Part shown: piece after piece, positions 8,123-40,022 of the stretch | How positions within the stretch are numbered: position 1 is the first letter of the stretch | How the letters are laid out: every line of letters begins with the position of its first letter | DNA from: Streptomyces lunaelactis | Lineage (GTDB): Bacteria > Actinomycetota > Actinomycetes > Streptomycetales > Streptomycetaceae | Reading direction: 5' to 3' | DNA length: 64,000 bases | Assembly (NCBI RefSeq): GCF_003054555.1 | Contig: NZ_CP026304.1 | Location: 1,054,001-1,118,000, forward strand | The notes under the pieces: generated by a model | What the model was told of the DNA's origin: nothing | What the model saw: the letters and a program-made list of their open reading frames with translations, nothing else | Databases searched by the model: none | Made by a program: the position numbers and the translations under genes

Positions 8123-8742
8123 ATGTACGCAAACAGCATTGACCTTGGCACCAGTTGCTCTGGTGCGTGTGTTGCCGTGGACCAGGTGTGGGCCGCCCCC
8201 GCCCGCCGGGGTGAGGGGCGGCCCCCGGGCGTGCTGTCCGACTTGCGTGCTGCGAGGCAGGACACCAGATGGCTGCTGCCGCACCGCCCCGAGGCCGCAG
8301 GGCGTGCCCGCCGGATCACCAGCGCGTTCCTCAAAGACTGGCACGACGGTGAAACCGAATCCGTGCTGCTTGTGGTCTCCGAGCTGGTACCGAATCCGTG
8401 CTGCTTGTGGTCTCCGAGCTGGTGGCGAACGCGGTGCTGTATGCCCGTCCGCCGCTGCTCCTGCACCTGGTGCGTGATCGCATCGGCTCCTGGGTGTGGG
8501 TGGGAGTCACGGACGGCGGCCCCACCGGAGAGAGCGCCGGGACTGCCCCACGGGAGGACGATGAGCACGGGCGCGGCCTGGTCATAGTCGATGCCCTCGC
8601 ACCGGCCCATGGAACCCGCAACCACGCAAGCGGCCGCGTGACCCACTGGGCGAACTGGTCCGTCGGCCCGGCGGTTAGGCTGTGCATGTGCCCCGACCTG
8701 CCAATCCCCTCGTCCGCGAGAGTCTCCTCGACGCAGGAATGA
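8123..8742 (+). pseudogene. RsbW/SpoIIAB-like ATPase, frameshifted by tandem duplication
   Basis: The gene encodes a HATPase_c domain of the anti-sigma/serine-kinase type common in Streptomyces. The first frame (from ATG 8123) carries AGRARRITSAFLKDWHDGE and then LLVVSELV. The continuation VANAVLYARPP, VTDGGP and GRGLVIVDALA (N, G1 and G2 box region) is in the +2 frame. A perfect 35-bp tandem repeat at 8354-8423 causes the switch; removing one unit restores a single continuous frame, as shown by the CTG codons at 8366 and 8401. The second frame ends at 8742, overlapping the next gene. As it stands only a C-terminal piece could be made. Confidence 0.75.
8354..8423. repeat. Perfect 35-bp tandem duplication
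   Basis: Units 8354-8388 and 8389-8423 are identical, each starting 'accgaatccgtgctgc'. Because 35 is not a multiple of three, the duplication breaks the ATPase gene that contains it. The perfect identity suggests a recent event or an assembly artefact. Confidence 0.95.
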
Positions 8743-9299
8743 CCCTTTTCCATGCTCGCGGCTTCAACGCGGTGGGCATCAAGGAGATCACGGACACCGC
8801 CGGCGTCCCGAAAGGGTCGTTCTACAGCTACTACAGCAGCAAGAACGTCTTCGCGGCCGCGGTCCTCGACCGCTTCTGGACCGGAATCGTCCGTCATCAC
8901 GGCCCGATCCTCACCGACCCGTCCACCCCGCCGGTGCGCCGCCTCGTCGCATTCTTCGAGGCCTTGACCCGGGACAATGCCGAGCGGGGGTTCGCGCTCG
9001 GGTGTCTCCTCGGCAATCTCGCTCTCGAACTCTCCGACGACAACGGGGAAGCACGGCTCCGGCTGGCGAACATCATGGAGCAGTGGTCGGATCTCATCGC
9101 TGCCTGTCTGGCGCAAGCGGGGAACACCGCTGATGACGGCGTCGCGACAACTGAGACAACAGACCTGGCATCGATGATCATCGAGAGCTGGGAGGGAGCT
9201 GTCATGCGCGGCCGGGTTGACCAGAGCCGTGCCCCGTACGACCGGTTCCTCACCGTATCGCTGCCGCGACTGCTGGACGCAGTCGGGGTATCCGTCTGA
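8688..9299 (+). CDS. TetR/AcrR-family transcriptional regulator
   Basis: The 203-residue repressor-type protein has an N-terminal HTH with MTLFHARGFNAVGIKEITDT, then AGVPKGSFYSYYSSKNVFAA, the classical TetR DNA-binding domain. The C-terminal part (about 70-200) is a ligand domain with ALGCLLGNLALELSD and ARLRLANIMEQW, like the AcrR subgroup in which this domain senses a small molecule. I chose the GTG at 8688 giving MPRPANPLVRESLLDAG; a GTG at 8682 adds two residues. Its 5' end overlaps the broken ATPase frame by 55 bp. No divergent target gene is adjacent, so its regulon is not evident. Confidence 0.85.
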   Translation: MPRPANPLVRESLLDAGMTLFHARGFNAVGIKEITDTAGVPKGSFYSYYSSKNVFAAAVLDRFWTGIVRHHGPILTDPSTPPVRRLVAFFEALTRDNAERGFALGCLLGNLALELSDDNGEARLRLANIMEQWSDLIAACLAQAGNTADDGVATTETTDLASMIIESWEGAVMRGRVDQSRAPYDRFLTVSLPRLLDAVGVSV

Positions 9300-9609
9300 A
9301 CCCCAAAGCGCACACCTTGCACTGCCTCACTGTGATGTATGCCCTTCGATTCATTCATAGGCGACTGGTCGCGTATTATTGGGGAGTCTCTTCCGCCTCT
9401 CGGAGTCGCTTCCGTCTCCCGAACTCACGCCAACCACGAGTCCGACACATGACGTCCGCCCAGACCGGCCTCAACGCCGAACCTCGATGCGCCGGCGGGC
9501 GGGGACGGCAACACGCCGCTGGTGCGTGACCACCCGTTGCGGCAACAGCTCCCGTGTGACCCTCTCCTACCAACACCACAAGACCGCCACCGCACGAGGG
9601 GAGACTGCG

Positions 9610-9750
9610 GCCGCCTTGGACGATTAAGCAAGTTCTCCAGACGCTTGATCATGGCCCATCCCGCCGGCGGACCGTAGCGTCGCAGCCAGCCGTACCTACG
9701 GCCGCAGCGAAGTCATCCACGGCCAGAAACGAATCAGTGGAAGGCACATC
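9610..9750 (+). promoter_or_regulatory. Conserved leader/promoter module, copy 1
   Basis: This stretch starts with 'gccgccttggacga', passes 'gttctccagacgcttgatca' and ends just before ATG 9751. It aligns nearly end to end with 19478-19616 and with the complement of 47411-47565. Here it precedes a decayed aldo/keto reductase. Conservation in front of different genes suggests a regulatory region. The rest of 9300-9609 holds no gene I can support. Confidence 0.6.
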
Positions 9751-9850
9751 ATGCGGTACGAGCAGGCAGGGCTTTTCGTTCTCCCGGATCGCGGTGGGAA
9801 CACTGACGTTCCACGGCGCGGGGACACCGGCGCGGAGTCGGATGCGGAAC
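9751..9850 (+). pseudogene. Decayed 5' end of an aldo/keto reductase
   Basis: The start MRYEQ and, in another frame, FSRIAVGTLTFHGAGTP match the first 30 residues of the intact aldo/keto reductase at 19617 (MQYEQ and VSRIALGTMTFGGAGTP). A small deletion shifts the frame and homology ends near 9845. Only the leader and the first codons of the duplicate survive. Confidence 0.65.
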
Positions 9851-9924
9851 GTCCGTGCTCCTCGGGGAGCAGGGCAGCAGGGCGGCGATGGCCTTGCTCC
9901 CCGTCTGACCAGGGGAGAGTTTGA

Positions 9925-12747
9925 GTGCCGGAACAAATGCGCTTCGCTGTTCTGGGGCCTGTCCGTAGCTGGTGCGGGCCGGACGAGGTGGACCTCGGGC
10001 CTCCGAAGCAGCGTGCGGTCCTTGCCGTATTGCTGCTCGGCGAAGGCGCACAAGTCCCGGTCGACGCGCTGGTCGACGCCGTCTGGGGGACCGGATCGCC
10101 GGGCTCCGCGGTGAGTTCGCTGCGCACCTACGTCCATCGGCTGCGTCGGCTGCTCGGCCCTCTGGCGATCCTTTCCGTGCGGGACGGTTACCAGATGCAT
10201 ACGTCGCCCGAATCGCTCGATCTGGCTGCCTTCCGGGACCTCGTCGCCCGGGGGGACCGGGCCCGACGCGACAACGATGCCAAGACCGCCGCCCGGTACC
10301 TGAACGACGCCCTCGCTCACTGGCAGGGGACAGCGCTGGCCGGAATCCGCGGCGAGTACGCCCAAGCCCAGCGCAAACGGCTTGACCGACTGCGGCTGTC
10401 CGCCCTGGAGGCGAGCCTCGCGGTCCGGCTCGAGCTGGGCGAACACGCTGATGCCGCAAGGGAGTTGGCGGCCCTGGTGGCCGAGCACCCGCTGGACGAA
10501 CGGTTCCGGGAGATGCTGATGCTCGCCCTGTACCGGTCGGGACGCCAGGCGGAGGCGCTCGTGACGTACAAAGAGGCCCGCGCGGTTCTCGCCGATGAGC
10601 TGGGTGTCGATCCGGGACCTGAACTCCGGCACATGTTCGAGCGCATCCTGCGGGCGGACGCCGGACTGATCGCCCCGCCCACGCCCGCGCCGGCACCCGA
10701 CCAGCCGACGCCGGCACAGCTCCCCGCCGAGCTGCCGGCCTTTGTCGGGCGTGCGGCGCAACTCGCACAGTTGGACCTGCTGCTTCCCGGCAACGGCGAG
10801 GTGCCCACGACCATCGTCGTCAGCGCCATCGCCGGCATGGCCGGAGTCGGCAAGAGCACCTTCGCCGTGCACTGGGCCCACCATGTCAGCTCCCGTTTCC
10901 CCGACGGTCAGCTCTACATCGACCTGAGGGGCTTCGATCCGGCCGGACTGCCGGTCTCCCCGGACCGGGCGCTGCGCACGCTTCTTGAGTCACTTGGGGC
11001 CGATCCGCAGAGCCTGCCGCAGGACGCCGACGCGCTGGTGGCCTGCTACCGCACACGGCTCGCCGGGCGGCGTGTGCTGCTCCTGCTGGACAACGCCAGC
11101 GACGCTCAGCAAGTGCGCCCGCTGCTGCCGGCGAGCCCCGGCTGCCTGGTGATCGTCACCAGCAGGAACCGGCTGTCCGGCCTGATCGCCACAGACGGGG
11201 CCTGCCCCGTCCACCTCGACGTGCTCTCTGTGGCGGAGGCGCGCGACTTCCTCGTACGCAGGCTGGGCGCCGACCGGGTGGCCGCCGAGCCGACGGCCGT
11301 CGACGAGATCATCGAACTCTGCGCCCGGCTGCCACTGGCCCTGTCCATCGCGGCTGCGCGGGCGCTGACCTGCTCGGGCTTCCCTCTTGCGAGCCTCGCC
11401 GGCGAACTGGCCGACGGTCAAAACCGCCTGGACGCCTTCAACATGCCCGACACGGCGACCGACGTACGCGCCGTCTTCTCGTGGTCGTACCACGCCCTCA
11501 CCCCCGCCGCCGCACGCCTGTTCCGGCTGATCGCCCTGCATCCGGGCCCGGACACCTCGTTGGCCGCCGCCGCAAGCCTCGCAGGCCTCACCGTCGCGCA
11601 CACCCACCAATTGCTGACCGAACTGACTCACGCCCACCTCGTGGACGAACCCGTGCCCGGCCGGTATGCCGCCCACGACCTGCTGCGCACCTACGCCGGT
11701 GAACTGGCTCGTGCCTCCGACACGCCGGAGGAGCACCACACCGCCCGGGTCCGCGTCCTCGACCACTATCTGCACAGTGCCCACCGCGCAGGGCGGGCGT
11801 ACTCTCCCGACCGGCCCGCGATCGTGCTGTCTGCCCCCTCCCGGGGCGTCCGGGTCGAGGAATTCGCCCCGGAGCCTGGGCACTCCGGCCCGGCCGCGGC
11901 CTGGTTCGACGCCGAACGGGCGGTGCTGATGGCGGCCATCAGAACGGCGGCCGCTCATGGGCTCGACACGCACACCTGGCAACTCGCCTGGGCCGTCGGA
12001 CACTACCTGGACCGCAAGGGGCTGTGGCACGACCTCGAAGCAACACAGAACATCGCGATGGAGGCGGCAGAGCGTCTCGGCGACCCCCGCGCCCAGGCAC
12101 ACGTCCACCAGGGACTGGCGCGGGCCGCGACCGATCTGGGCCGGGTCGAAGAGGCACGGAACCGCATGGAGCGGGCGGTGGAGCTGTTCACCGCTGCCGG
12201 CGACGTCACCGCCTGCGCCGAGAGCATCCGGGTGCTGAGCCGGGCGGCCGAACGGCAGGGCGACCTGGAAGCAGCGCTCTCCCACGCCCAACAGGCTCTC
12301 GCTCTGCACCGGGCTGCCGGCCACAGCGCTCGCACCGCCGCGGCACTCAACGCCGTCGGCTGGTGCCACACCCTCCTCGGGCAGCACCAGCAGGCGCTCG
12401 ACCACTGCCAGGAAGCCCTGACGATCAAGGAGCTGCCCGACCGCCCCTACCTCAAGGCGGACGTCTGGGACAGCATCGGCCTCGCCCAGCACCATCTGGG
12501 CCGGTACACCGAGGCCGTCGCCAGCTACGAACAGGCCCTCGTCCTCTTCCGTGAAGTCGGCGTCGCCTACGCCGAAGCGGACACGCTGAGCCGTCTCGGG
12601 GACACCCACCACGTGGTGGGCCGCGTGGCCTCGGCGCGTGAGGCATGGGCCGAGGCCCTCGTCATCCTGGAACGGCTCGGCCATACGGACGCGGAGGTCG
12701 TCCGTGCGAAGCTCACGGGGCTCACAGAGAACCGACCCTGTAACTGA
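9925..12747 (+). CDS. AfsR/SARP-type regulator (BTAD + NB-ARC + TPR)
   Basis: The 940-residue cytoplasmic regulator has an OmpR-like winged-helix (about 5-95, VLGPVRSWCGPDEVDLGPPK), then a bacterial transcriptional activator domain (about 100-250, ending ADELGVDPGPELRHMFERIL). An NB-ARC ATPase follows with P-loop GMAGVGKS near 304-311 and a Walker-B-like LLLLDN. The C-terminal third is tetratricopeptide repeats (about 680-930). Such proteins typically activate secondary-metabolite genes. GTG at 9925 has 'aggggag' upstream. A paralogue of the same architecture is at 34254. It lies upstream of the RiPP operon on the opposite strand and could regulate it, which is inference. Confidence 0.9.
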   Translation: MPEQMRFAVLGPVRSWCGPDEVDLGPPKQRAVLAVLLLGEGAQVPVDALVDAVWGTGSPGSAVSSLRTYVHRLRRLLGPLAILSVRDGYQMHTSPESLDLAAFRDLVARGDRARRDNDAKTAARYLNDALAHWQGTALAGIRGEYAQAQRKRLDRLRLSALEASLAVRLELGEHADAARELAALVAEHPLDERFREMLMLALYRSGRQAEALVTYKEARAVLADELGVDPGPELRHMFERILRADAGLIAPPTPAPAPDQPTPAQLPAELPAFVGRAAQLAQLDLLLPGNGEVPTTIVVSAIAGMAGVGKSTFAVHWAHHVSSRFPDGQLYIDLRGFDPAGLPVSPDRALRTLLESLGADPQSLPQDADALVACYRTRLAGRRVLLLLDNASDAQQVRPLLPASPGCLVIVTSRNRLSGLIATDGACPVHLDVLSVAEARDFLVRRLGADRVAAEPTAVDEIIELCARLPLALSIAAARALTCSGFPLASLAGELADGQNRLDAFNMPDTATDVRAVFSWSYHALTPAAARLFRLIALHPGPDTSLAAAASLAGLTVAHTHQLLTELTHAHLVDEPVPGRYAAHDLLRTYAGELARASDTPEEHHTARVRVLDHYLHSAHRAGRAYSPDRPAIVLSAPSRGVRVEEFAPEPGHSGPAAAWFDAERAVLMAAIRTAAAHGLDTHTWQLAWAVGHYLDRKGLWHDLEATQNIAMEAAERLGDPRAQAHVHQGLARAATDLGRVEEARNRMERAVELFTAAGDVTACAESIRVLSRAAERQGDLEAALSHAQQALALHRAAGHSARTAAALNAVGWCHTLLGQHQQALDHCQEALTIKELPDRPYLKADVWDSIGLAQHHLGRYTEAVASYEQALVLFREVGVAYAEADTLSRLGDTHHVVGRVASAREAWAEALVILERLGHTDAEVVRAKLTGLTENRPCN

Positions 12748-12784
12748 CCCACTCGGTCAGATTCCCCCTGCACCCCGACGAAGC

Positions 12785-13000
12785 GCAGGTGCGGTCGCCG
12801 GGACGATCCGGCTGACCGCAACCGTCGTGCTGACAAGCGGCTTGCCGACCCCGCCCGCCATCGCCGCAGAGGCGGCCTGCATTCCAGCCGGCGCCAACGC
12901 CTCTGTCCAGGAAGCGTTGGTCGGCCCCGGAGCGGTCGCAGTGACCTGTGCGCCGGATCGGTCTTCGACCTTTACTCGATCCCAGCGGCCGTGCGTCAAG
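12785..13000 (+). pseudogene. Decayed N-terminus of a secreted beta-helix protein
   Basis: The reading ends a signal-peptide-like segment with PPAIAAEAACIPAGANASVQ and continues EALVGPGAVAV. It parallels AAGCISSGTDADITAALVGP in the intact beta-helix gene at 30153-31808. After that, VFDLYS is recovered only in another frame, so the gene is frameshifted and truncated. It follows an AfsR-like regulator, as the intact gene is near the second AfsR paralogue. Confidence 0.55.
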
Positions 13001-13135
13001 TGGCGTCATCGGTATCGACTCCACCAACACGCGCGGGTGCTCGGCCATGCCAAGCAGGGCACCGAGTACGCTGCTTGGCGTCCGCACCCCGCTCGCGCGG
13101 TCGGCCGCGATCTGCACGCCGACTGCCCCGGCCGG

Positions 13136-16100
13136 TCATCGCCGCGATCCGCTACGGCGGGTAGGTCCGCCGGCTCCGGGGGCGCCGAACGGTTTGTCTC
13201 CGAAGCCCTGGCCACCGCCGTTGAGGCCGGCTGCACCGGGCCGCGTCCCGTGCGCAGACTCATCCTGGACAGGACCATCGGGGAGGCGGGCCAGGGCATT
13301 GCTCCGGTCGAGGTGTGCGACCGCAGCGCCGCGCGCAACGGCGTATACGTCCTGTTCTATGTCCGCCGCGAAACGCAATCGCCGGTTGCAATGCATGTGC
13401 AGCAACGCCTTGAGGATCTCGGCGGGCAGGATCCAGTTCTCCCGCTCTGCCGCCCGGCGCACCGTGGCAGCGTACGCGGCCAGGCCGGCGTGCCATTCGG
13501 CGTCCTCGGCCTTCTGGGCCGGCCCGTCGACGGGGATCAGCGCCAGTGCTTCGCGGCGCCTGCGGGCGAAGACCCGGTGCCGGGTCTCGTCCTTCTCGTA
13601 GTGATTGATCAACCATTGCTCCCAGGCCACCGCTCCAGCCCCCTGGAATCCGCGGATCAGACGGACTACGTCGGCGGCCACGGGCAGCGGGTCGGTGTCG
13701 TCATCGAGGCGGCGCAGGGCCAGTCGGCTGTCCGCGCAGAAGAATCGCTCCGCGGCCTCAATGGCGGCCTTGCCCCCGTACCGCTCGACCTCCGGGCGGT
13801 ACACGTGCAGGGACAGGTCGTCGCTGAGCCCGGCGGCCGAGAGGTCCCGGGCCCAGTCCCGAAGGCTCGGCAGCACGTGCCGGGCGACAGCGGACGGGTC
13901 TCCGTGCAGCCGGAGCCGTAGGTGCGGCCGGCCGGTTGACGCGTCGGCGTAGCGGACGAAGAACCAGCGGTCCACGTGCTCAGCCTGGCTGCGCAGCCAC
14001 GGCTCCAGGTGGGTCGCGAGGATCAGCCTCTGGCTTTCGGCCGACGAGGGGATCCGGGCGGACAGCCATTCCCCGCCGGGCGGGTGCGGTGCGGACAAGG
14101 GGCCGCGGGTCGGGGCCGGGGCAACTGGCTCGCGCACGATGGGGGATCTCGCAAAGAGTGGTACGACGATTTCCGCGTCGTATGTGCCGTCCGGTCCGCG
14201 CAGCCATCCCAACGGCGGTTCGTGGGACAGGTCCTCGTGCAGCACGCACTCCCGGTCCGACAGGACCTGATGGCACAGCAGCTCCCTGTGACGGGGCAGC
14301 CGGAGATCCAGAGCCAGCCGCTGGTCCGCGCTGGCCAGATGGATGCGGTCGGGCATCCGCCACCGTTCGCGCCACGCCGCCAGGCGTTCCGCGGCTTCTC
14401 CGTCGGCAAGGTCGGCAAGGCGCAGTCGCCAAGTGGCGGGCATCAGTATGGTCCGGCCGTAGCGCACGGCGGGGAGGAAGGGGCAGCTGTTCAAGTGGCC
14501 CCAGTCCCAAGCCCCCAGCTGGGTCGTTCCCATGAGAGGGACCTCGAGGAGGAAGCGTGCCACGTTGGGGGCGAGCCGACTGCTGAGCATGTGCGGGGCG
14601 AACGGGCTGATCTCCCGTCCGGAGGAGGTGTCAACGACGTGGAACCGCTGGGTGTCGGCGTAGACGCAGACGTGTGCGAGATCGACAGCGCCCGGTGACG
14701 TGGGATCGGCGTAGATCCCCACGGCGACGTGGTGGGCGGCAATGTCCGTTGCTCCGGTGACATTCTGTACCCTGCGGTCGCGGGTTGCGTAGTCCACCCG
14801 CACCGGCAGCGGAGTGTCGGGGCCTGCGCCCCATGTGCGCCGGGCGAACGCGGCGAGGTGCTCCTCGGCACCGAGGAGTTGGGAAAACCGCCCCCATGCC
14901 GTGCCGGCCAGTCGGGAGACCTGGAACGGCGGGACCATCAGGAGGAAGCGGCCTGCGGCCAGTTCTCCAGGCGAGTCGGCAAGGACCGAGACGAACAGCT
15001 CGGCGGATGGCGGCGGATACCCGCGCCCGGATTCCAGCGAACGGATGGTGGACTCGTCGAGCTCGACGCTCGTCCGCCCGGCGGTCAATGCGCCTGCGTA
15101 CAGCGCGTTGAGGTCGCTCGCACGGTCCGGATCCACCAGGGGCGGGAGAGGTCTGCGGTGACCGGTCGGCAACTCGTAACCGGCTGGAGGGCCGAGTCCG
15201 GTGTCGGGGTCGAGCAGGCTGCTCACCGGCACCAACTCCCCCAGCCCGTAGTGCTCCAGGAACTCCCGGTGGTACGCCGTCAGCGCACGCTGTCCGTCGC
15301 TTTCGGGCACGGACACCCGCCACAACACCGAGGCCGCGGAGGCAGCCTCCCGGGCAACCTCCGCCTGCAGGCGAACGTCGGCCTCGAGTGCCAGATCAAC
15401 CTGCACGCACGCCGACGAGCCGGCGGCCCGGTACAGCTCGGCCAGAGCCGGTGCGCCCCTGCCGACGTCACAGGAAGCGTAATGCCGCAGCCTCGCTGCG
15501 TAATTCCGCAACCCGGTGTGCCCCGGCGCGGCGCGCGCGGCGTGGCCCAGAGGATCAGGCTCGGCGGGCGACGGCAGGCTGTCGGTGACGAGGAATTCAA
15601 GCGCGATCAGGCGGGTCAGCAGCCTGGCGGCCTGCTCCGGCGCGAGGCCGGGGCAATCCGCGGTGACCGCGGTGACCAAGTCCCCGAAAGCCACGGGCCG
15701 CCGTGCCTGCCGCAACACGGCTTCGACGGGCGGGGTCCTGCGAACGCTGCGCCGGGCAGGCTTCGGCGAGCGCATCGCGAGGGGCAGGAGGAGCTGGTCG
15801 CCTTGTATCCGGCAGGTGTTGTTGACAACGACGCGCAGGGCCGCCGGGGGGTCGGCGATGTCCCGCGCGTCAAGGAGTGTGCCAAGCCAAGCCCGGTCCG
15901 GCTGGACGAGCTTGGTGCGCCGACCGGTCAGCCGGGCGCTGGGCCTGTCGCCGAAGGAACCCACAGCCACTCCCGCGAGCAGGCCGAAAGGCGTGGCCCT
16001 GCGGGACATCCGCAGGTGGTAGCGGAGCAGCGACCGGGTCAGTCGCTGTCCCGCCGGGACTGGCGGCCGGCTCCCGGCGAGAGTGTCCTGCACGGCACGC

Positions 16101-16273
16101 GCCAGCGAGGGGCTGGACACCAGCAGCGCCTCGGCGGCCAGTGGGTCCCGGGCCAGCGCCATGACCGTGTCGGTGTCGGTCTGCTCCCCGCCGGCAGCTT
16201 CGTTCGGCAGGACGGGAACGCGAAGGAGAAAGACGTCGCCGCTCTCGAAGACGGGGAGCGCGTCGTCAGACAT
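13136..16273 (-). CDS. Class I lantibiotic dehydratase (full-length LanB)
   Basis: The 1,045-residue enzyme is predicted to glutamylate Ser/Thr of the precursor peptide from glutamyl-tRNA and then eliminate glutamate to give Dha/Dhb. The N-terminal glutamylation domain (about 1-730) shows the LanB signature YHLRMSRRATPFGLLAG near 90-105. The C-terminal 'thiopeptide-type' elimination domain (about 755-1020) contains EHVDRWFFVRYADA and PHLRLRLHG. Both halves are in one chain, unlike the split LanBs of thiopeptide and goadsporin clusters. The ATG has a 'ctggaggcccc' site. It is the last gene of the RiPP operon, 209 bp after the YcaO gene. The C-terminal 30 residues are Gly/Pro-rich. Confidence 0.92.
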   Translation of the reverse strand: MSDDALPVFESGDVFLLRVPVLPNEAAGGEQTDTDTVMALARDPLAAEALLVSSPSLARAVQDTLAGSRPPVPAGQRLTRSLLRYHLRMSRRATPFGLLAGVAVGSFGDRPSARLTGRRTKLVQPDRAWLGTLLDARDIADPPAALRVVVNNTCRIQGDQLLLPLAMRSPKPARRSVRRTPPVEAVLRQARRPVAFGDLVTAVTADCPGLAPEQAARLLTRLIALEFLVTDSLPSPAEPDPLGHAARAAPGHTGLRNYAARLRHYASCDVGRGAPALAELYRAAGSSACVQVDLALEADVRLQAEVAREAASAASVLWRVSVPESDGQRALTAYHREFLEHYGLGELVPVSSLLDPDTGLGPPAGYELPTGHRRPLPPLVDPDRASDLNALYAGALTAGRTSVELDESTIRSLESGRGYPPPSAELFVSVLADSPGELAAGRFLLMVPPFQVSRLAGTAWGRFSQLLGAEEHLAAFARRTWGAGPDTPLPVRVDYATRDRRVQNVTGATDIAAHHVAVGIYADPTSPGAVDLAHVCVYADTQRFHVVDTSSGREISPFAPHMLSSRLAPNVARFLLEVPLMGTTQLGAWDWGHLNSCPFLPAVRYGRTILMPATWRLRLADLADGEAAERLAAWRERWRMPDRIHLASADQRLALDLRLPRHRELLCHQVLSDRECVLHEDLSHEPPLGWLRGPDGTYDAEIVVPLFARSPIVREPVAPAPTRGPLSAPHPPGGEWLSARIPSSAESQRLILATHLEPWLRSQAEHVDRWFFVRYADASTGRPHLRLRLHGDPSAVARHVLPSLRDWARDLSAAGLSDDLSLHVYRPEVERYGGKAAIEAAERFFCADSRLALRRLDDDTDPLPVAADVVRLIRGFQGAGAVAWEQWLINHYEKDETRHRVFARRRREALALIPVDGPAQKAEDAEWHAGLAAYAATVRRAAERENWILPAEILKALLHMHCNRRLRFAADIEQDVYAVARGAAVAHLDRSNALARLPDGPVQDESAHGTRPGAAGLNGGGQGFGDKPFGAPGAGGPTRRSGSRR

Positions 16274-16482
16274 GGGGCCTCCAGCTGATGCGTCGGGGTG
16301 GTGAGACCCGGATCCCGCGCACTGGTCGCGCAGAACCGGCAGACGCAGTCACGGGAGCTCGTAACAAACACACTCGAGGCCGAAAGCGGGCGAATGCGGT
16401 CCCGGTAGGGGTAACAGCTCACCTCGTGACCGTGGCCGACTGAGGGGGTCGCGGAACTCCCGCTGCGTAGAGGGGCAGCGGG

Positions 16483-18726
16483 CTAGAGGAACATGGCGAT
16501 CGGATTGAGTTCCGTTTCCGGCACCCTCGACTCTGTCCAGCCGAGGGCAACGGGAACGTCGTACAGCCTGCCGGGCGCGTACTGCGGCCAGAAGCTGCGC
16601 AGGCCTGGGACTATGACCTTGACTACCGGCAGGCAGATGTCCGGCCGTGTCTGGTCCAGCACCAGCATCTCCATGTCGTTCTCCTCGACAATCCGCTGGG
16701 CCTCCCGAACGCCGGACAGCAGGTCGGGGCCCACAGGTGTCTGACGGGCCTGTCTGGTGAAGAGGCCGGAAGTGCCGCGTGGCGCGAGGTACGGCTGGCT
16801 CTCCAGCGTCGCGGTCCGCCACCACTCGGTGTCCGGGCCGCCCTCGGCGCGGTCCGGGGCGGAGCGAAACTCCAGGAGGCCGGCCAGGAATTGGTTCATC
16901 TCCGTCAGGGCCCGGGTGACCGCCACGGCCGGGTCGAAGTGCGCGCCGAAGCCGAAGAGAATGTCCTCGGTGGGGCCATCGGTCCGGCGCGACACCGCTG
17001 CCGCGACAGGGATTCCCAGGTCCGAGGTCAGATCCAGGACCCAGGTCTCGCGGCCGATGCTCGCATAGTGTTCCTGCCAGCGCTCGATATATGCGATGTC
17101 CGCCAGGTTCACGTCGATCGCCGGACGGGCCGTGCGGTTGTACCACCACATGGCGACACTGTCCCTTTCAACCAACTCGAAGAAGCCTTGGAGAATCGCG
17201 TCCTCCAGGCTGCTCCCGGCCGCATTCCCGTTGGAGTCGGCGAGGGCGACGACAGGGCCGGTCGGGGTGGGGAAGTCGTAGTACAGGTAGGCGGTCGGCA
17301 CGTACTTGTGCGCCTCCTCGCTCAGCGACCAGACAGGCGTCCAGGCCATGTCCTGCGCCTCATCGAACGGGTCAGGCACCCAGGTGAAGGGAGTGCCGCG
17401 GCCGCGCCACTCCTCACGGTTGCGGAACTGGTCTTCACTGAAGTGCTGCAGGGTGTCCAGCGGCACGGCGTCGGCGCCCAGTGCGCGGGCGGAGGTCACG
17501 ATGTGCGCTTCGTCGCCCTGCCAGACGCCGGAGTACCGCTCGATGGCCTCGCCGAGAGCGCTCGCCCGGGCCTGCAGGTCACTCATGCCCTTGCCGGCGC
17601 TCTCGGTGCGCAACGCGCGCTGCGCCCGGCTGAGTTCCCGGGGCCGGCCAATCGCGAAATTGTGACCGGCGGAATAGACGTGCAACAGCTCTGACGACGT
17701 CTTCATCCGGGTCAGCTCCGACACGACGCCCGTGATGGGACTGACGAGGTGTCCGTACGTGTCGAGCATGTGGTAACGGCTTCGCGACCGGTACCCGCCG
17801 TCGGCACCCGGTGCCGCAGGCACGCTGCGCAAGGCCGGCGGCAGGTGTGCCGCAGTCGCCACCAACGTTGGGTCGCCACAGTCCGGGCATTGCGGGCGCC
17901 GGGTGAGACGGTGCTTACGGGATTCCAGGGCCAAGGGGTCGAAGCTCACGATCGTCGGCGGGTCGTCGGGCAGTCCGGCCATCCACTGCGTGACCCGCAA
18001 AACCGCCAGCCGGGCAGCCAGTCCCGTGGCCGTTGTGAGCCGCACGTCACCCATCACTGGGACGTAGTCCCGATGGGTCATTCTGGCGAGCGTGGCCTGG
18101 AGCTGCCGGTGGCCTCGGGCTCGCTGCACCAGGCAGCTCCAGCACGCGGTGTGCCGGGGTTCGAGGACGGGCGAGATCCAGGCGCTCTCCCCGGTCAGTT
18201 TGGCCACGAGCCAGGAGCTACGGGTCTTCAGAGCATCCTGGTTGAACGCCAAGATGTCCGGGTGGAGGAAATCGGATGTGAGCACGACGGTGAGGCCCGG
18301 ATCACCGTCGCCAAGACGCAGGCCTTGCGCCGTCGCGGCTTCCGTGAACGCATCTGTGCTCGCGCCGCCGACGGCGACCGCGCGCACACTCCGGTTTTCG
18401 ATCGCCTCGCTCACGGAGTCCGGAGCCACGCCGGCAAGTTCCCAGAACCCGGCGTCGTCGCGTTCGGAATCTCCCCACCGCTCGACTACGAGCCCGGCAG
18501 TGAGCAGCCGGTCCAGGCCGCGGTCCACGACGGACCCGGGAAAAGACGCCGCGAGCGCATGCCGCAGCGCCACGCGCGTCGCGCCCTTCAGCAGCAGAGG
18601 GGCCAACTGCTCGACGAGCTTGCCACGCAGCACCGTGTTGCGCCCCTGGGAGAGCAGGTACACCCCCGCTCCCGGAATGACTTCGACGCCCACGTGCCGC
18701 GGGAAGCGCACGATGCGACCAGCCAT
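16483..18726 (-). CDS. Fused E1-like/YcaO cyclodehydratase (TOMM type)
   Basis: The 747-residue protein is predicted to bind the leader and activate backbone amides with ATP to form azolines or related groups. The N-terminal part (1-330) is an ocin-ThiF-like leader-binding domain with a zinc tetracysteine, CWSC near 194 and CPDC near 279. The YcaO domain (about 340-747) has GKGMSDLQARASALGEAIER near 376, GSSLEDAILQGFFELVERDS near 502 and ALTEMNQF near 605, all ATP/Mg-binding regions. It ends ELNPIAMFL rather than PxPxP. I chose ATG 18726, preceded by 'ggaaagaaag'; the longer ORF upstream overlaps the precursor in another frame. No separate azoline dehydrogenase was found. Confidence 0.9.
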   Translation of the reverse strand: MAGRIVRFPRHVGVEVIPGAGVYLLSQGRNTVLRGKLVEQLAPLLLKGATRVALRHALAASFPGSVVDRGLDRLLTAGLVVERWGDSERDDAGFWELAGVAPDSVSEAIENRSVRAVAVGGASTDAFTEAATAQGLRLGDGDPGLTVVLTSDFLHPDILAFNQDALKTRSSWLVAKLTGESAWISPVLEPRHTACWSCLVQRARGHRQLQATLARMTHRDYVPVMGDVRLTTATGLAARLAVLRVTQWMAGLPDDPPTIVSFDPLALESRKHRLTRRPQCPDCGDPTLVATAAHLPPALRSVPAAPGADGGYRSRSRYHMLDTYGHLVSPITGVVSELTRMKTSSELLHVYSAGHNFAIGRPRELSRAQRALRTESAGKGMSDLQARASALGEAIERYSGVWQGDEAHIVTSARALGADAVPLDTLQHFSEDQFRNREEWRGRGTPFTWVPDPFDEAQDMAWTPVWSLSEEAHKYVPTAYLYYDFPTPTGPVVALADSNGNAAGSSLEDAILQGFFELVERDSVAMWWYNRTARPAIDVNLADIAYIERWQEHYASIGRETWVLDLTSDLGIPVAAAVSRRTDGPTEDILFGFGAHFDPAVAVTRALTEMNQFLAGLLEFRSAPDRAEGGPDTEWWRTATLESQPYLAPRGTSGLFTRQARQTPVGPDLLSGVREAQRIVEENDMEMLVLDQTRPDICLPVVKVIVPGLRSFWPQYAPGRLYDVPVALGWTESRVPETELNPIAMFL

Positions 18727-18756
18727 GACACCCGACTTTCTTTCCGGTGCGATGCA

Positions 18757-18794
18757 GCATGCGGCTTCACAGTCGCAACTGCGAGGCCGCATGC
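18757..18794 (-). terminator. Hairpin between precursor and enzymes (attenuator)
   Basis: GCATGCGGC at 18757-18765 is repeated inverted as GCCGCATGC at 18786-18794. The 20-nt loop can itself pair (TCGCA/TGCGA). It lies 26 bp after the precursor stop and 30 bp before the YcaO start, with no T-run. This suits partial termination or message stabilisation that favours precursor over enzymes. Confidence 0.6.
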
Positions 18795-18820
18795 CTTTAG
18801 CAACTATGCGTCCCCGCTGA

Positions 18821-18922
18821 TTACCAGGTGGGGCGGCTGTATCGCTGGCTGGGGCGCACGTCGAGCTCCTCGATCGCGATCTCCTCCTCGGAGACCTCGA
18901 GGATGTTGTCTTCCTTCTCCAT
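18821..18922 (-). CDS. Putative RiPP precursor peptide (33 aa)
   Basis: A short ORF with a strong ribosome site (AGGGAGGTG, 5 nt before ATG). The first 22 residues are acidic and leader-like, containing LEVSEEEIAIEEL, similar in character to TOMM/thiopeptide leaders. The C-terminal tail RPSQRYSRPTW is basic and aromatic, with Ser25, Ser29 and Thr32 as the only hydroxyl targets and no Cys. It is the first gene of an operon with a YcaO fusion and a LanB. Where cleavage occurs and which residues are modified is unknown. The gene is on the minus strand within a longer ORF in another frame, so gene callers may miss it. Confidence 0.8.
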   Translation of the reverse strand: MEKEDNILEVSEEEIAIEELDVRPSQRYSRPTW

Positions 18923-19075
18923 AGTTCACCTCCCTGTCTGTGGGCGGACACCGCGTACGCTAGCTGCGCTGTTCGCCTGGGAACAGCTCGCTCGGACATG
19001 GCAACAATCACTGGTGCCGGACTGATCCTGACAAGCAATCAGGTCGTTGTTAATAATCTTTCCAGTACGGGCATG

Positions 19076-19109
19076 GGTGTTTGCACCAATGGTCACGGAT
19101 GCAAACACC
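19076..19109. promoter_or_regulatory. 10-bp perfect inverted repeat upstream of RiPP operon
   Basis: GGTGTTTGCA and TGCAAACACC are separated by 14 bp, about 155 bp before the precursor ATG. The symmetry and AT-richer surroundings (an 'ttaataatc' stretch lies nearer the gene) fit an operator for a dimeric regulator. A terminator is also possible, but no T-run follows. Confidence 0.45.
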
Positions 19110-19309
19110 ACTGGGAGTCTGAGAGTTCGTAGCGGCGCGCCCCCATCTCTCCCGACGGAGCAGGTGCCACCGTGGATCAGCCCCTCCTCGCCACCCTCAC
19201 CGGCGACATCCCTGCCGAAGCCGCCCGCCTTCGAATCCCAGGGCGACTGGGAAAGCAACGCACGCGTGATGACAACACGGCTGGTGCCACGGGTCGGCGT
19301 TGTATCCCC

Positions 19310-19421
19310 TCATGGGTGCATCAGCGCCTACGTGGCGGGATGGATCCGCCGAAAGTACAAACGGCCGGCGGGCCTGAAGAAGCTGCACGGCGGACGGCCG
19401 ATCGCCCGGGTGGTGTCGTGA
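19310..19421 (+). pseudogene. Remnant of a group II intron maturase C-terminus
   Basis: About 35 codons read SAYVAGWIRRKYKRPAGLKK. This resembles the maturase-specific end of group II intron reverse transcriptases (compare YLMRWIRKKYKRLRxFKK). The stop follows 13 codons later and nothing upstream matches. It is too short for certainty. Confidence 0.4.
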
Positions 19422-19477
19422 AGCCCGAACCGGGCGATGCCGTGCTCCGTCGGCACCGGCGCGCCGGCGGAGCGTCG

Positions 19478-19616
19478 GCCGCCTTGGACGAGCGCGCAGG
19501 TTCTCCAGACGCTTGATCATGGTCTGCCCGGCCGGCCGCCCGTAGCGTCGCAGGCAGCCGTGCGGACGGCCGCAGCGCCGTCCACGACCAGAGCACGGGT
19601 CACCGGAAGGCAGAAC
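19478..19616 (+). promoter_or_regulatory. Conserved leader/promoter module, copy 2
   Basis: This is the intact copy in front of the functional aldo/keto reductase. It begins 'gccgccttggacga', has 'gttctccagacgcttgatca', then a block around 'cgtccacgaccagagcac', and ends in 'ggaaggcagaac' before the ATG, where GGAAGG is the ribosome site. Confidence 0.65.
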
Positions 19617-20642
19617 ATGCAGTACGAGCAGTTGGGCGCCACGGGGGTTTTCGTGTCCCGGATCGCTTTGGGCACGATGACGTTCGGCGGGGCGGGCACG
19701 CCGCCGTGGAGCCTGGTAGGTGGTCTGGACGAGAAGGCCGCGGACGAGCTTGTGGGCCTGGCTCTCGATGCGGGTGTCAACCTCGTCGACACCGCCGACA
19801 TGTACGCCGCGGGCGAGTGCGAGGAGATCCTCGGCCGGGTGCTGGGCTCGAGGCGCCAGGACGTACTGCTTGCCACCAAGCTCTTCGCCCGCATGGGCAC
19901 CGGCCCCAACGACGTCGGTCTGTCCCGGCATTGGGTCACCCGGGCGCTGGAGGACAGCCTGCGCCGACTGCGTACCGACCATATCGACCTGTACCAGATA
20001 CACAGCTTCGATCCGCTGACCCGGGTCGAGGAGACGCTGGCCGCATTGGACGACGCCGTCCGGCAGGGCAAGATCCGTTACATCGGCGCCTCCAACCTGG
20101 CCGCGTGGCAGATGATGAAGTTCCTCGGTGCCTCGCAGCACAGCTCGCTGGAGCGCTTCGTGTCCCAGCAGGTGTACTACTCGCTGGCCGGACGGGACAT
20201 CGAGCGGGAGATCCTGCCCATGGCCAGGGACCAGCAGCTCGCCACGCTGGTGTGGAGCCCGCTCGCCGGCGGGTTCCTGTCCGGCAAGTTCGACCGCAAC
20301 GGCACCAGCGACGACACCGCGCGCCGCGCCATTGCCGACTTCCCGCCCGTGGACCGGGAACGCGGCTGGGACATCGTGGACGCTCTGCGCGTCGTCGCCG
20401 CACGCCACGGCGTGGGTGTGGCCCGCACCGCCCTCGCCTGGGTACTCGCCCAACCCGGGATCACGAGCGTGATCGTCGGCGCGAAGCGCCCCGACCAGCT
20501 CACCGAAAACCTGGCCGCCGTCGACCTCGTACTCACCGACGAGGACCTGGCAGACCTGGACGCGGCCAGCGCGCTCCCGGTCCCCTACCCCAACTGGTGG
20601 GACCAGGGCGCCCTCGAGCACCGGCCGCCGCTGCACTCCTGA
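19617..20642 (+). CDS. Aldo/keto reductase
   Basis: The 341-residue NADPH-dependent reductase of the TIM-barrel superfamily would reduce a carbonyl substrate. The catalytic tetrad is visible as Asp (VDTADMY), Tyr of the same motif, Lys (LLATKLF) and His (YQIHSFD). The C-terminal cofactor region reads ITSVIVGAKRPDQLTENLAA. Length is typical of AKR families 11-14. The ATG is preceded by GGAAGG. It carries the conserved leader module that also precedes a decayed copy at 9751 and the hydrolase at 46676, so these genes may respond to the same signal. It is divergent from the RiPP operon but separated from it by about 700 bp. Confidence 0.9.
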   Translation: MQYEQLGATGVFVSRIALGTMTFGGAGTPPWSLVGGLDEKAADELVGLALDAGVNLVDTADMYAAGECEEILGRVLGSRRQDVLLATKLFARMGTGPNDVGLSRHWVTRALEDSLRRLRTDHIDLYQIHSFDPLTRVEETLAALDDAVRQGKIRYIGASNLAAWQMMKFLGASQHSSLERFVSQQVYYSLAGRDIEREILPMARDQQLATLVWSPLAGGFLSGKFDRNGTSDDTARRAIADFPPVDRERGWDIVDALRVVAARHGVGVARTALAWVLAQPGITSVIVGAKRPDQLTENLAAVDLVLTDEDLADLDAASALPVPYPNWWDQGALEHRPPLHS

Positions 20643-20779
20643 CCCGACGGCGACCGCCACCGGGACACATCGGCAGTCGGCCGCACCCCGGTTGAGCACC
20701 CATCGTTCGCGCTGCGAGCACAGCCGTGGCCGGGCGAGGCGAGGTGGCCGTGCTTGCCGGAGCCGGGACAGCACGGCGT

Positions 20780-20910
20780 AACTGACTGAGTATCAGAAAG
20801 CAATCGTGCGTCGATCGCCGGCCAGGAGCATGCGAGACGTCTTTGGCGTCCCGACGCAGACACCGAACCGAGAGACTTTTCACGGCTGTCACACCCGTGC
20901 ACCGACCCGC
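20780..20910 (+). promoter_or_regulatory. Element shared with the sigma-factor promoter region, copy 1
   Basis: The segment beginning 'aactgactgagtatcagaaa' and running through 'agcatgcgagacgt' aligns with the complement of 29301-29381, upstream of the ECF sigma gene. Similarity continues weakly to about 20910. No sigma gene follows here. The surrounding gap (20643-21247) holds only a doubtful 47-codon ORF at 21026-21169. Confidence 0.5.
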
Positions 20911-21247
20911 GGCCGTTCCAACCGTCAGCGATCACCACGTGCGGCCTGGGCCACGGCTCCAGAGCCGGCAACTGCTCACCGCACCCATCACATTCAACCG
21001 TCCAACCACCTTCCGAGGATCCTTGATGACCCTGGTACCGGCGGCGCGCTCACGCAACAGCTCATCGGCCCCCAATCTCCAAGCGCTGATCCGGGCGCGA
21101 GCCATGCACGACCCAGTGCCGGAGGTCCCTGACGTGTCGCCGTGCTTCGCACGGCGCCACCCTTCGTGACGGTAAGCCGCGCGCTGCGCGTACCCGCACA
21201 CCATCTTTCGCACCACCCGCCGCACACTGCCCCAGAGGAGAAAGAGC

Positions 21248-22093
21248 ATGAGCCGCAGCGACGTCCTGGTAGACGCCGACTGGGTCGAGGCCCACATCGA
21301 GGACCCGAAGGTCGTCATTGTCGAGGTCGACGAGGACACCTCCGCGTACGACAAGAACCACATCAAGAACGCCGTCCGGATCGACTGGAAGTCCGACCTC
21401 CAGGACCCGGTCCGCCGTGACTTCGTCGACCAGGAGGGCTTCGAGAAGCTCCTGTCCGCGAAGGGCATCGCCAACGACGACACCGTCGTCCTCTACGGCG
21501 GAAACAACAACTGGTTCGCCTCGTACGCCTACTGGTACTTCAAGCTCTACGGCCACGACAGCGTCAAGCTCCTCGACGGCGGCCGCAAGAAGTGGGAGCT
21601 GGACTCCCGCGACCTGGTCGACGGCTCCGAGGTCCCCAGCCGCCCGGCGACCGAGTACAAGGCCCAGGCCCAGGACACCTCCATCCGCGCCTTCCGCGAC
21701 GAGGCCGTCGCCGCGATCGGCAAGCTGAACCTGGTCGACGTGCGCTCCCCCGCCGAGTTCAGCGGCAAGCTGCTCGCCCCGGCGCACCTCCCGCAGGAGC
21801 AGTCGCAGCGCCCGGGCCACATCCCGAGCGCCCGCAACATCCCGTGGTCCACGAACGCCAACGAGGACGGCACCTTCAAGTCGGACGACGAACTCAAGGA
21901 GCTCTACGCGGAGGAGCAGGTCGACCTGGCGAAGGACACCATCGCGTACTGCCGCATCGGTGAGCGTTCCGCGCTCACCTGGTTCGTCCTGCACGAGCTG
22001 CTCGGCGTCCAGAACGTCAAGAACTACGACGGCTCGTGGACCGAGTACGGCTCCCTCATCGGCGTGCCGATCGAGCTCGGCGCCAACGAGTAA
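21248..22093 (+). CDS. Thiosulfate sulfurtransferase (tandem rhodanese)
   Basis: The 281-residue cytoplasmic enzyme transfers sulfane sulfur from thiosulfate to cyanide or thiol acceptors. Two rhodanese domains are visible. The N-terminal one is non-catalytic (about 8-120, LYGGNNNWFASYAYWYFKLY). The C-terminal one is catalytic (about 150-275), with active-site loop YCRIGERS containing the reactive Cys. Length and both signatures match the actinobacterial CysA/SseA-type enzymes. The ATG has 'agaggagaaagagc' upstream. It forms a two-gene operon with the DUF1416 gene 40 bp downstream, a pairing seen widely in Streptomyces and mycobacteria. Codon use is strongly biased, suggesting high expression. 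Confidence 0.93.
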   Translation: MSRSDVLVDADWVEAHIEDPKVVIVEVDEDTSAYDKNHIKNAVRIDWKSDLQDPVRRDFVDQEGFEKLLSAKGIANDDTVVLYGGNNNWFASYAYWYFKLYGHDSVKLLDGGRKKWELDSRDLVDGSEVPSRPATEYKAQAQDTSIRAFRDEAVAAIGKLNLVDVRSPAEFSGKLLAPAHLPQEQSQRPGHIPSARNIPWSTNANEDGTFKSDDELKELYAEEQVDLAKDTIAYCRIGERSALTWFVLHELLGVQNVKNYDGSWTEYGSLIGVPIELGANE

Positions 22094-23498: not shown

Positions 23499-23613
23499 AC
23501 AATGTCGTTTCTGGTCAAGTCCCGGGGCGCCGACAGTCAAATCCGGCCACGTATCCGGCTTAGCGTCCAGCCACCCCTGATGCCACTGCTTGCCAGAGGA
23601 GACCGGAGGAGAC

Positions 23614-24651
23614 ATGTCCACAACCGGGCGCTCGGGAACCACCCCGCGCTTCCCCGCGTACAGTTCGCACTTCCCTGAGGACACGCAGGCGTTCGTGTTC
23701 GCCCAGTACGCCTGTCAGGCGGGCTCACTCGGCCAGGCCGCGAACGGCGCCGCCACGATCGCGGAACTGTTCAGCGGGGAGCACCAGCCGGAGGTGCTGG
23801 ACCGCGGATGGTTCACCGACACCGTCGGCGCTCACAATGTCGTCTGGCTGGCCTACTGGTTCGACCTGGAGGCGTACGACCGGTGGCAGCGGTCCGATCG
23901 TGTCCGCTCCGCCTGGGAACAGCTGCCCTCCGACGGCCCGGTCGGCCACTGGCGCGAGGTGTGCGTCATCCCGGTCGAGCGCAACGAGACCCTGCACACC
24001 CACCAGCGTGCCGACTACGCGACCAGCGGCCTGTCCCAGCACGAGGCGGTGGAACACCTTGAGACTCAGGTGCACGACTACTGGGGTGCCGCTCGCGACC
24101 GCATCGCGGACTCGGCCGTCGACCCGTTGGAGCCCGCTCTTCCCGTCTTCGAACCGCAGACCGCCCTCGAGCGCGACACGCTGGGTCGGCGCGTCACCGT
24201 CGAGGTGCCCGGGAACGTCGCCCTGATCCGGACGGCGCAGGACTGGTCCGCCAGCACCCTGTACCGCGAGAAGTACCTGGCCGACGTCAAACCGGCCAAG
24301 GACCGCGGTGTCGACTACCTCGCCACCCACCCGGACTCCGGCTGCATCGCCGCCCGCAATCTCGACGAGGAGTCGGCCGACGGCACATGGCTCGAGCGCA
24401 CCTGCACCATCGCCTGGTTCGCCTCGCTCGAGCACCTCATGACCTGGTGCCGCTCACACCGCACCCACCTGGAGATCTACGCCAGCTTCTTCCAGATGGT
24501 CGGAGGCGGAGAGGGGCCCCTCGACGTCGCGTTCTGGCACGAGGTGTCTGTCCTGCCCAGCGGCTCGGTCACCACCGAGTACGTCAACTGCCACCAGGCG
24601 ACCGGCTTCCTGTCGCTGACCGCCGACCACCGCAGCACCATCACCGTCTGA
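23614..24651 (+). CDS. oxd: Aldoxime dehydratase (heme enzyme)
   Basis: The 345-residue cytoplasmic heme protein dehydrates aldoximes (R-CH=NOH) to nitriles. It matches phenylacetaldoxime dehydratases: NVVWLAYWFDLEAYDRW in the N-terminal half and GCIAARNLDEESADGTWLER later. Two histidines fit the expected roles, His285 (RTHLEIYASF) as proximal heme ligand and His309 (FWHEVSVL) as the distal catalytic residue. The ATG at 23614 has GGAGGAG seven bases upstream. The nitrilase gene follows 44 bp later, so the pair converts aldoxime to acid, and phenylacetate-pathway remnants lie beyond. Length is typical of the family (about 350). Confidence 0.93.
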   Translation: MSTTGRSGTTPRFPAYSSHFPEDTQAFVFAQYACQAGSLGQAANGAATIAELFSGEHQPEVLDRGWFTDTVGAHNVVWLAYWFDLEAYDRWQRSDRVRSAWEQLPSDGPVGHWREVCVIPVERNETLHTHQRADYATSGLSQHEAVEHLETQVHDYWGAARDRIADSAVDPLEPALPVFEPQTALERDTLGRRVTVEVPGNVALIRTAQDWSASTLYREKYLADVKPAKDRGVDYLATHPDSGCIAARNLDEESADGTWLERTCTIAWFASLEHLMTWCRSHRTHLEIYASFFQMVGGGEGPLDVAFWHEVSVLPSGSVTTEYVNCHQATGFLSLTADHRSTITV

Positions 24652-24695
24652 CCGGGACCGGCAGCGTCCGGACCAAGAACAAGGAGACGAAGAAC

Positions 24696-39861: not shown

Positions 39862-40022
39862 GGCTCTTTTCTTTCCTTGATTTCCGGGGCAGGAAGGCCC
39901 TGTCCCGGTGTGGGTGGGTGATAGCCGGCTGGGATCCGCCGGGCCTTTGGGCCCGGCGGATTCCGGCAGCGCGGCGGATTGGTGGGTCTGTGGGTGCGGA
40001 TTCGTGCGGGAATCCGGCAGCG

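Follow-up and report, generated by a model that had tools for sequence, protein, structure and literature searches.

A three-gene ribosomal peptide operon with a 33-residue precursor, a YcaO fusion and a full-length LanB in Streptomyces lunaelactis

The peptide gene, its homologues and the two enzymes

The DNA analysed here, a stretch of 64,000 nucleotides from Streptomyces lunaelactis (contig NZ_CP026304.1, positions 1,054,001 to 1,118,000), referred to below as the window, carries a compact operon for a ribosomally synthesized and post-translationally modified peptide (RiPP). All on one strand (-), a peptide gene, a hairpin, a gene for a YcaO fusion enzyme and a gene for a LanB dehydratase follow one another in this order. 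A previous sequence-only reading had proposed a 33-residue RiPP precursor encoded with a YcaO fusion and a full-length LanB, and this was confirmed by domain cut-offs, by a family of homologous precursors and by the corresponding operon of S. hygroscopicus ATCC 21589 (locus L039), in which the same three genes stand in the same order and the YcaO and LanB proteins are 82 % and 80 % identical, respectively, to those of the window.

18821-18922 (-): precursor peptide gene, 33 amino acids, MEKEDNILEVSEEEIAIEELDVRPSQRYSRPTW (stop included), defined by the open reading frame (ORF) and a homologue family of six
18842-18922 (-): leader, residues 1-27, from the six-sequence alignment
18824-18841 (-): proposed core YSRPTW, residues 28-33, assigned from the same alignment
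18756-18795 (-): hairpin separating the peptide and YcaO genes, stable in comparison with shuffled sequences and present also in L039
16483-18729 (-): YcaO fusion, 748 amino acids, with an N-terminus like a RiPP recognition element (RRE), a leader-binding domain and a YcaO domain
13136-16273 (-): full-length LanB, 1045 amino acids, with glutamylation and elimination domains (PF04738 and PF14028)

The peptide ORF is preceded by a GGAGG ribosome-binding site. The window peptide used as a query against 199 related genomes retrieved its own copy and otherwise seven matches in six genomes with E values of 0.5-0.96, which were taken as chance. The L039 peptide (MKQESSILELSEEEIAIEELDARPSQRICYPPTW) matched 2 of 295 Streptomyces genomes at E ≤ 0.01, one of them the window's own, and a profile made from the two peptides retrieved from 5.8 billion sequences (six candidates scored) both queries and four new proteins at E values from 8.5e-17 to 6.7e-14. 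L039 is the sole related YcaO-LanB pair with readable DNA, and the short ORF that the sequence-only reading expected beside such pairs was found there. Across the six peptides the leader is nearly fixed and the tail is variable, which is the pattern of a RiPP precursor; 21 of the 33 window residues are invariant in the alignment, mainly in the leader. It is very probable that the 33-residue peptide is a true precursor.

The leader sequence V10-S-E-E-E-I15, with the family form V/L10-S-E-E-E-I15, is similar to the L(X)4L element, which in PatE is the part bound by the RRE of LynD according to the available portion of PMC12455567. The same portion reports for a related system that the Leu of this element can be replaced by Val and Phe, and makes no mention of Ile. 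No chain similar to the leader was found in the PDB.

The start of the YcaO gene was placed at ATG 18729, since the conservation with L039 passes through this codon; a longer version from TTG 19038 was a mechanical call only and was rejected. The protein scored above the curated cut-offs of TIGR03882 (106.9 versus 36.9 bits) and TIGR03604 (251.9 versus 219.25 bits). Cys196, Cys199, Cys281 and Cys284 of the leader-binding domain, which we take to form the zinc site, are invariant in all 20 aligned sequences. Homology to LynD spans residues 7-746 (E 1.4e-163), TruD also aligns end to end and MusD matches in two stretches. The enzyme shares 47 % identity with the goadsporin protein P0043, presumably GodD, and 98 % with the YcaO P0001. 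It has the domains and cysteines of an azoline-forming fused cyclodehydratase, and azoline formation is predicted for it.

Among proteins of known structure the LanB is related to 5ehk (the best match, which we take to be MibB), 9g04 and NisB. Of 13 NisB positions that we assumed to matter for catalysis, 12 could be mapped in the printed alignment and ten of these are identical: R14, R83, R87, D121, D299, R464, R784, R786, E823 and R826. I298 is replaced by Val and N405 by Gly, and H961 falls beyond the end of the alignment; the LanB has the sequence HMHCNR at 959-964. The protein is a full-length LanB with both domains and, at ten of the twelve mapped positions, the NisB active-site residue. 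Nothing related to it was found in viral contigs.

YcaO-LanB pairs among relatives and accessory functions

In the protein searches with YcaO and LanB, only about 8000 candidates sharing most words with the query were scored; 359 YcaO relatives were found, 120 of which were listed, along with 72 LanB relatives. Six YcaO/LanB pairs with a longest contig of equal size were present among the 120 listed YcaOs and 72 LanBs, and for one of the six, P0002/P0124 (L039), the operon was read directly. All six paired YcaOs rank in the ten closest among the 120 listed of 359. A maximum-likelihood tree was built from the window enzyme and 34 of the 120 listed relatives, 35 YcaOs in all; it placed the window enzyme and the six paired ones in an 11-row Streptomyces clade with support of 100/100.

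The surroundings of YcaO genes were surveyed in the best 80 loci of genome contigs, taken from named genomes and of differing lengths, beside which closer loci may exist. A SagB relative (one tblastn query) was found in 46 of them, a split LanB in two (L041, the source of the query, and L042) and a full-length LanB in two (L039 and L104); the remaining 32 contain none of the three. In L041 the exporters, YcaO, SagB and split LanB follow in series, which is a goadsporin-like arrangement. L104 from S. monashensis, which also has these two enzymes, was rejected as a further example of the operon: its LanB is oppositely oriented with two lanthipeptide-like precursor ORFs adjoining (judged by eye), as if an independent lanthipeptide locus and a YcaO gene stood back to back. 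In three genomes with YcaOs 48-52 % identical to that of the window (G387, G038 and G380) the distance between the YcaO and a SagB match is about 0.9 kb. By these comparisons LanB seems to occupy in the window's clade the place that SagB has beside the neighbouring YcaOs. On plasmids, YcaO matches were present in 244 records, all below 60 % identity.

Six short precursor-like ORFs that all have an E-D/E-L motif and differ in their tails were observed in series in another locus (L121, 4195-5141), adjoining a YcaO outside the clade that is 52 % identical to the window's.

Twenty ORFs between 0.7 and 37.8 kb of the window (at least about 100 amino acids long, some in overlapping frames) were scanned with Pfam, which listed no domain of a peptidase, a peptide exporter or a SagB-type dehydrogenase, in agreement with the earlier remark that no protease or exporter is adjacent. 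In the whole host genome there was no match to TIGR03605 (SagB; six candidates scored) and no match or candidate for PF05147 (LanC), and no second PF14028 protein was detected among the ORFs scanned around the operon. The distinction drawn earlier from goadsporin and thiopeptide loci, namely the lack of a dehydrogenase, was upheld by the host-wide SagB result and the full-length LanB. A second fused YcaO of the host (L137 8854-11226, corresponding to C1:7336853-7339078; 43 % identical), near a P450 and regulators, is also without a SagB-type dehydrogenase, since no SagB match exists anywhere in the genome.

The accessory genes not found in the 20 ORFs, together with the host-wide results for SagB and LanC, would fit the decay of a goadsporin-type or lanthipeptide locus in which dehydrogenase, protease and exporter were lost and no product is made. 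Such decay is very improbable, however, as the reading frames are intact, the active-site residues are retained and S. hygroscopicus still has the three genes in the same arrangement, at 80-82 % identity and with an almost unchanged leader.

Proposed modification of the precursor tail

After the invariant Gln26-Arg27 the tails of the six peptides read YSRPTW (window), ATRPTW, ICYPPTW, ICTPPSW, VCYPPSW and ACGPPSW, and follow the pattern X-[C/S/T]-(x)-[R/P]-P-[S/T]-W. All six keep Q26 and R27 as well as the Pro ahead of the penultimate residue and a terminal Trp (Trp33 of the window). The second tail residue, position 29, is Cys in four peptides, Ser in one (Ser29 of the window) and Thr in one, whereas the penultimate residue (Thr32 of the window) is Ser in three, Thr in three and Cys in none. 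The precursor had been described as cysteine-free; this is true of the window peptide but not of the system, given the Cys at position 29 in four of its members. The eleven-residue end RPSQRYSRPTW, previously regarded as the core, was given up in favour of a core that probably consists of the 6-7 residues following Gln-Arg.

The reading favoured here, to which we attach moderate confidence, is that the YcaO forms one azoline at position 29 and the LanB one dehydroalanine or dehydrobutyrine (Dha/Dhb) at position 32, and that a host protease cuts after Arg27. The leader would use V10-S-E-E-E-I15 to dock on the RRE of the YcaO fusion, and the YcaO would cyclise the single Cys, Ser or Thr at position 29 onto the preceding carbonyl to give an oxazoline in the window and a thiazoline or methyloxazoline in relatives. 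The LanB would glutamylate Thr32 from Glu-tRNA and then eliminate glutamate to leave Dhb, or Dha in the Ser-bearing relatives, so that each enzyme would have one conserved target. An ordered route, with YcaO acting before LanB, is plausible by analogy with GodF. Cleavage at Q26-R27, after the Arg, is attributed to a trypsin-like housekeeping protease of the host because Gln-Arg is invariant and no peptidase domain was found in the 20 ORFs scanned; it would release a product of 6-7 residues ending in Pro-Dhb/Dha-Trp. The calculated [M+H]+ of the unmodified, full-length window peptide is 3990.94, and a YSRPTW core that had undergone both losses of 18.01 would give 773.37. The ring is expected to remain an azoline because the host genome has no SagB dehydrogenase match, while an unrelated oxidase acting on the window ring is possible. 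We infer from sequence which residue each enzyme modifies, where the precursor is cut, how far the ring is oxidised and any activity.

Ser25, Ser29 and Thr32 had been listed as the modifiable residues. Positions 29 and 32, always C/S/T and S/T, stood up to the alignment; Ser25, present in four peptides and replaced by Gly in two (P0197 and P0199), is unlikely to be an essential target, and because of this replacement one ring position and one Ser/Thr-only position remain. LanBs often dehydrate several residues, and with R23 present in all six precursors and Ser25 in four, the core might start after Arg23 or include Ser25, the LanB dehydrating both Ser25 and Thr32 in a product of 10-11 residues. 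We regard this as unlikely in view of Gly25 in P0197 and P0199, the more so as P0197 and the LanB P0121, which is 98 % identical to that of the window, each have a longest contig of 14834 bases. The peptide with the VCYPPSW tail lies on a contig of the same size as that reported for the 98 % identical LanB. The equal contigs of P0197 and P0121 suggest that near-identical enzymes are paired with a different tail.

A different assignment of the two positions would have the YcaO form azolines at both of them and leave the LanB with another or a minor role. GodD/E treat Ser, Thr and Cys alike in the available part of PMC5303826, and position 32 is invariably Ser or Thr. This assignment is nevertheless doubtful, because the penultimate residue is never the Cys so frequent at position 29, and because the LanB accompanies the YcaO in the clade and retains ten active-site residues.

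The amidine or macrocyclic outcomes suggested earlier found nothing pointing to either. Amidine or bottromycin-type chemistry was rejected on the grounds that the YcaO is of the fused LynD type and all six peptides have C, S or T at position 29. A macrocycle, chemically still possible, was set aside as no macrocyclase was found among the scanned ORFs. A lanthionine formed by Cys29 and the penultimate Dha/Dhb was rejected for the window, which has no Cys in its precursor and no LanC match in its host, and is possible in the Cys-bearing relatives.

Several observations weigh against one azoline at position 29 and one Dha/Dhb at position 32. The six peptides are closely related, so the residue counts are not independent, and DNA was read for two loci only (the window and L039), the other four peptides being protein matches. 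No precursor was found for the YcaO relatives of 60-67 % identity. For five of the seven LanB-paired YcaOs the pairing comes from equal-sized contigs alone; four of the eleven clade rows (P0001, P0003, P0006 and P0010) have no LanB on an equal-sized contig, and the LanB label requires four changes on the YcaO tree. The genome G364 (YcaO 82 % identical; taken as the L039 genome) has one SagB match above the cut-off on another contig, and its azoline could be oxidised in trans; a single PF05147 (LanC) match, barely above the cut-off, also lies on another contig of that genome.

The goadsporin enzymes provide both a parallel and a difficulty. According to PMC5303826, GodD/E act on X1-(S/T/C)-X2, where the residue converted is a Thr, Cys or Ser at core position 2, the same position at which the tails described here carry C/S/T, and form no azole when Tyr, Trp, Arg or Glu replaces Ala at X1. 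In the window X1 is Tyr, and in the relatives Ile, Val or Ala; the window YcaO would therefore have to be more tolerant than GodD, and our confidence in one azoline and one dehydro residue was lowered slightly because of these data. Also, glutamylation by GodF was reported to occur only with GodD/E present, a result interpreted as a requirement for azoles rather than azolines.

The system is probably a small, little-noticed variant of ribosomal peptide natural products with one ring and one double bond in the last six residues. We see an even chance that a RiPP family is sighted here for the first time, one whose two enzymes modify one residue each of a variable 6-7-residue core and leave core position 2 as an unoxidised azoline and the residue before an invariant C-terminal Trp as Dha/Dhb. 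If so, this would be a very small natural setting for a YcaO and a class I dehydratase on one substrate, in which conservation already suggests the assignment of residue to enzyme. The division of labour between two Ser/Thr-using enzymes is called not yet known by the authors of the dehydrazole work (available part of PMC10676384), and could be tested here with a 33-residue peptide and two proteins. One enzyme pair would also serve very different tails, and the six natural tails would be a ready substrate panel.

Known systems and the surroundings of the operon

The proposed product resembles goadsporin in combining a heterocycle, at core position 2 of X1-(S/T/C)-X2, with a dehydroamino acid in one peptide. 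The goadsporin system (GodA/D/E/F/G/H) differs by the GodE dehydrogenase, the split LanB GodF + GodG, an acetyltransferase, a putative peptidase-exporter and a 19-residue core; these accessory features were not found at the window operon. The host genome has no match to TIGR03605, to which GodE is assumed to belong, the LanB is one 1045-residue protein with both domains, and in place of a 19-residue core with several S/T/C there is a 6-7-residue tail with two conserved S/T/C positions.

The cyanobactin enzymes LynD, TruD and MusD share the YcaO homology, the leader resembles L(X)4L and an oxidase is optional in cyanobactin clusters. These clusters differ in having two proteases and recognition sequences around the core, and LanB is not mentioned in the available part of the source (PMC4663559); no peptidase domain, hence neither of the two subtilisin-type proteases, was detected in the 20 ORFs scanned. 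With class I lanthipeptides (NisB, MibB) the operon shares the full-length LanB and its ten matching NisB active-site residues, but it has a YcaO in place of LanC, and no lanthionine is expected in the window product because the host has no LanC match and the window precursor no Cys, which four of the six family precursors do have. A thiopeptide assignment would call for a separate pyridine synthase and a core rich in Cys and Ser; a second PF14028 protein was not found among the ORFs scanned, and the proposed core contains one Ser and one Thr.

The dehydrazoles (carnazolamide) likewise combine azol(in)es and dehydroalanine in one RiPP class. They differ, in the available part of PMC10676384, by a DUF4135 LanMbC, a nitrile-hydratase-like leader and a dehydrogenase; the dehydratase of the window is a LanB and the leader has about 27 residues. 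YcaO proteins within class I lanthipeptide clusters have been reported earlier (PMC7268733, as far as available), so the YcaO-LanB pairing alone is not new. No description of the three-gene operon was found in a literature search conducted mostly outside subscription papers and largely at listing level. Two further papers report no LanB in Bacteroidales (PMC10352776) and the presence in only three strains of a RiPP cluster 6 (PMC7408125), which is not equated here with the operon.

Two stretches upstream of the peptide gene are conserved in L039.

18957-18962 (-): TAGCGT, candidate -10 element, within a stretch conserved upstream in L039
18998-19011: second conserved upstream stretch, GTGATTGTTGCCAT, common to the window and L039

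Comparison of the two loci makes a promoter role of TAGCGT possible. The 14-mer at 18998-19011 includes the ATG of an opposite-strand ORF of 44 amino acids (MATITG...), and the opposite-strand ORF in L039 begins with the same six residues and then diverges; a regulatory site and a short divergent gene are both possible. The hairpin has z scores of -3.59 in the window and -4.47 in L039, with the outer stem conserved between them, and may be an attenuator or a processing site leaving the peptide in excess. No known RNA family was found in 8600-21500.

The SARP gene at 9925-12747 was rejected as a member of the operon: it converges on LanB, and in L039 the LanB gene is followed by no ORF of comparable type or size. 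Both loci have a TetR-family regulator close to their LanB end (window 8682-9299, L039 9065-9673; 56 % identical over 203 amino acids), in differing orientations. The upstream region and 5' part (19476-19711) of an aldo/keto reductase gene at 19437-20642 are repeated at 9608-9837, with 74-83 % identity in three stretches and a spacing of about 9.87 kb, so that the SARP-LanB-YcaO-peptide block sits between a reductase remnant and the intact copy, perhaps as an insertion scar.

Farther along the window, 51160-63743 contains two very large ORFs of 2260 and 1996 amino acids, the first matching no Pfam family at 1e-10 and the second beginning with a WXG100-like domain. At 23590-25709 a gene for a haem-containing dehydratase, presumably of the aldoxime type, overlaps a nitrilase-family gene, perhaps as an aldoxime-to-nitrile-to-acid pair. 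A bacterial glutaminase gene at 40026-41654 adjoins a glutamine-synthetase-like gene (38842-40143), and its product combines an N-terminus resembling an EF hand with ankyrin repeats at the C-terminus, a domain order known in animal glutaminases.

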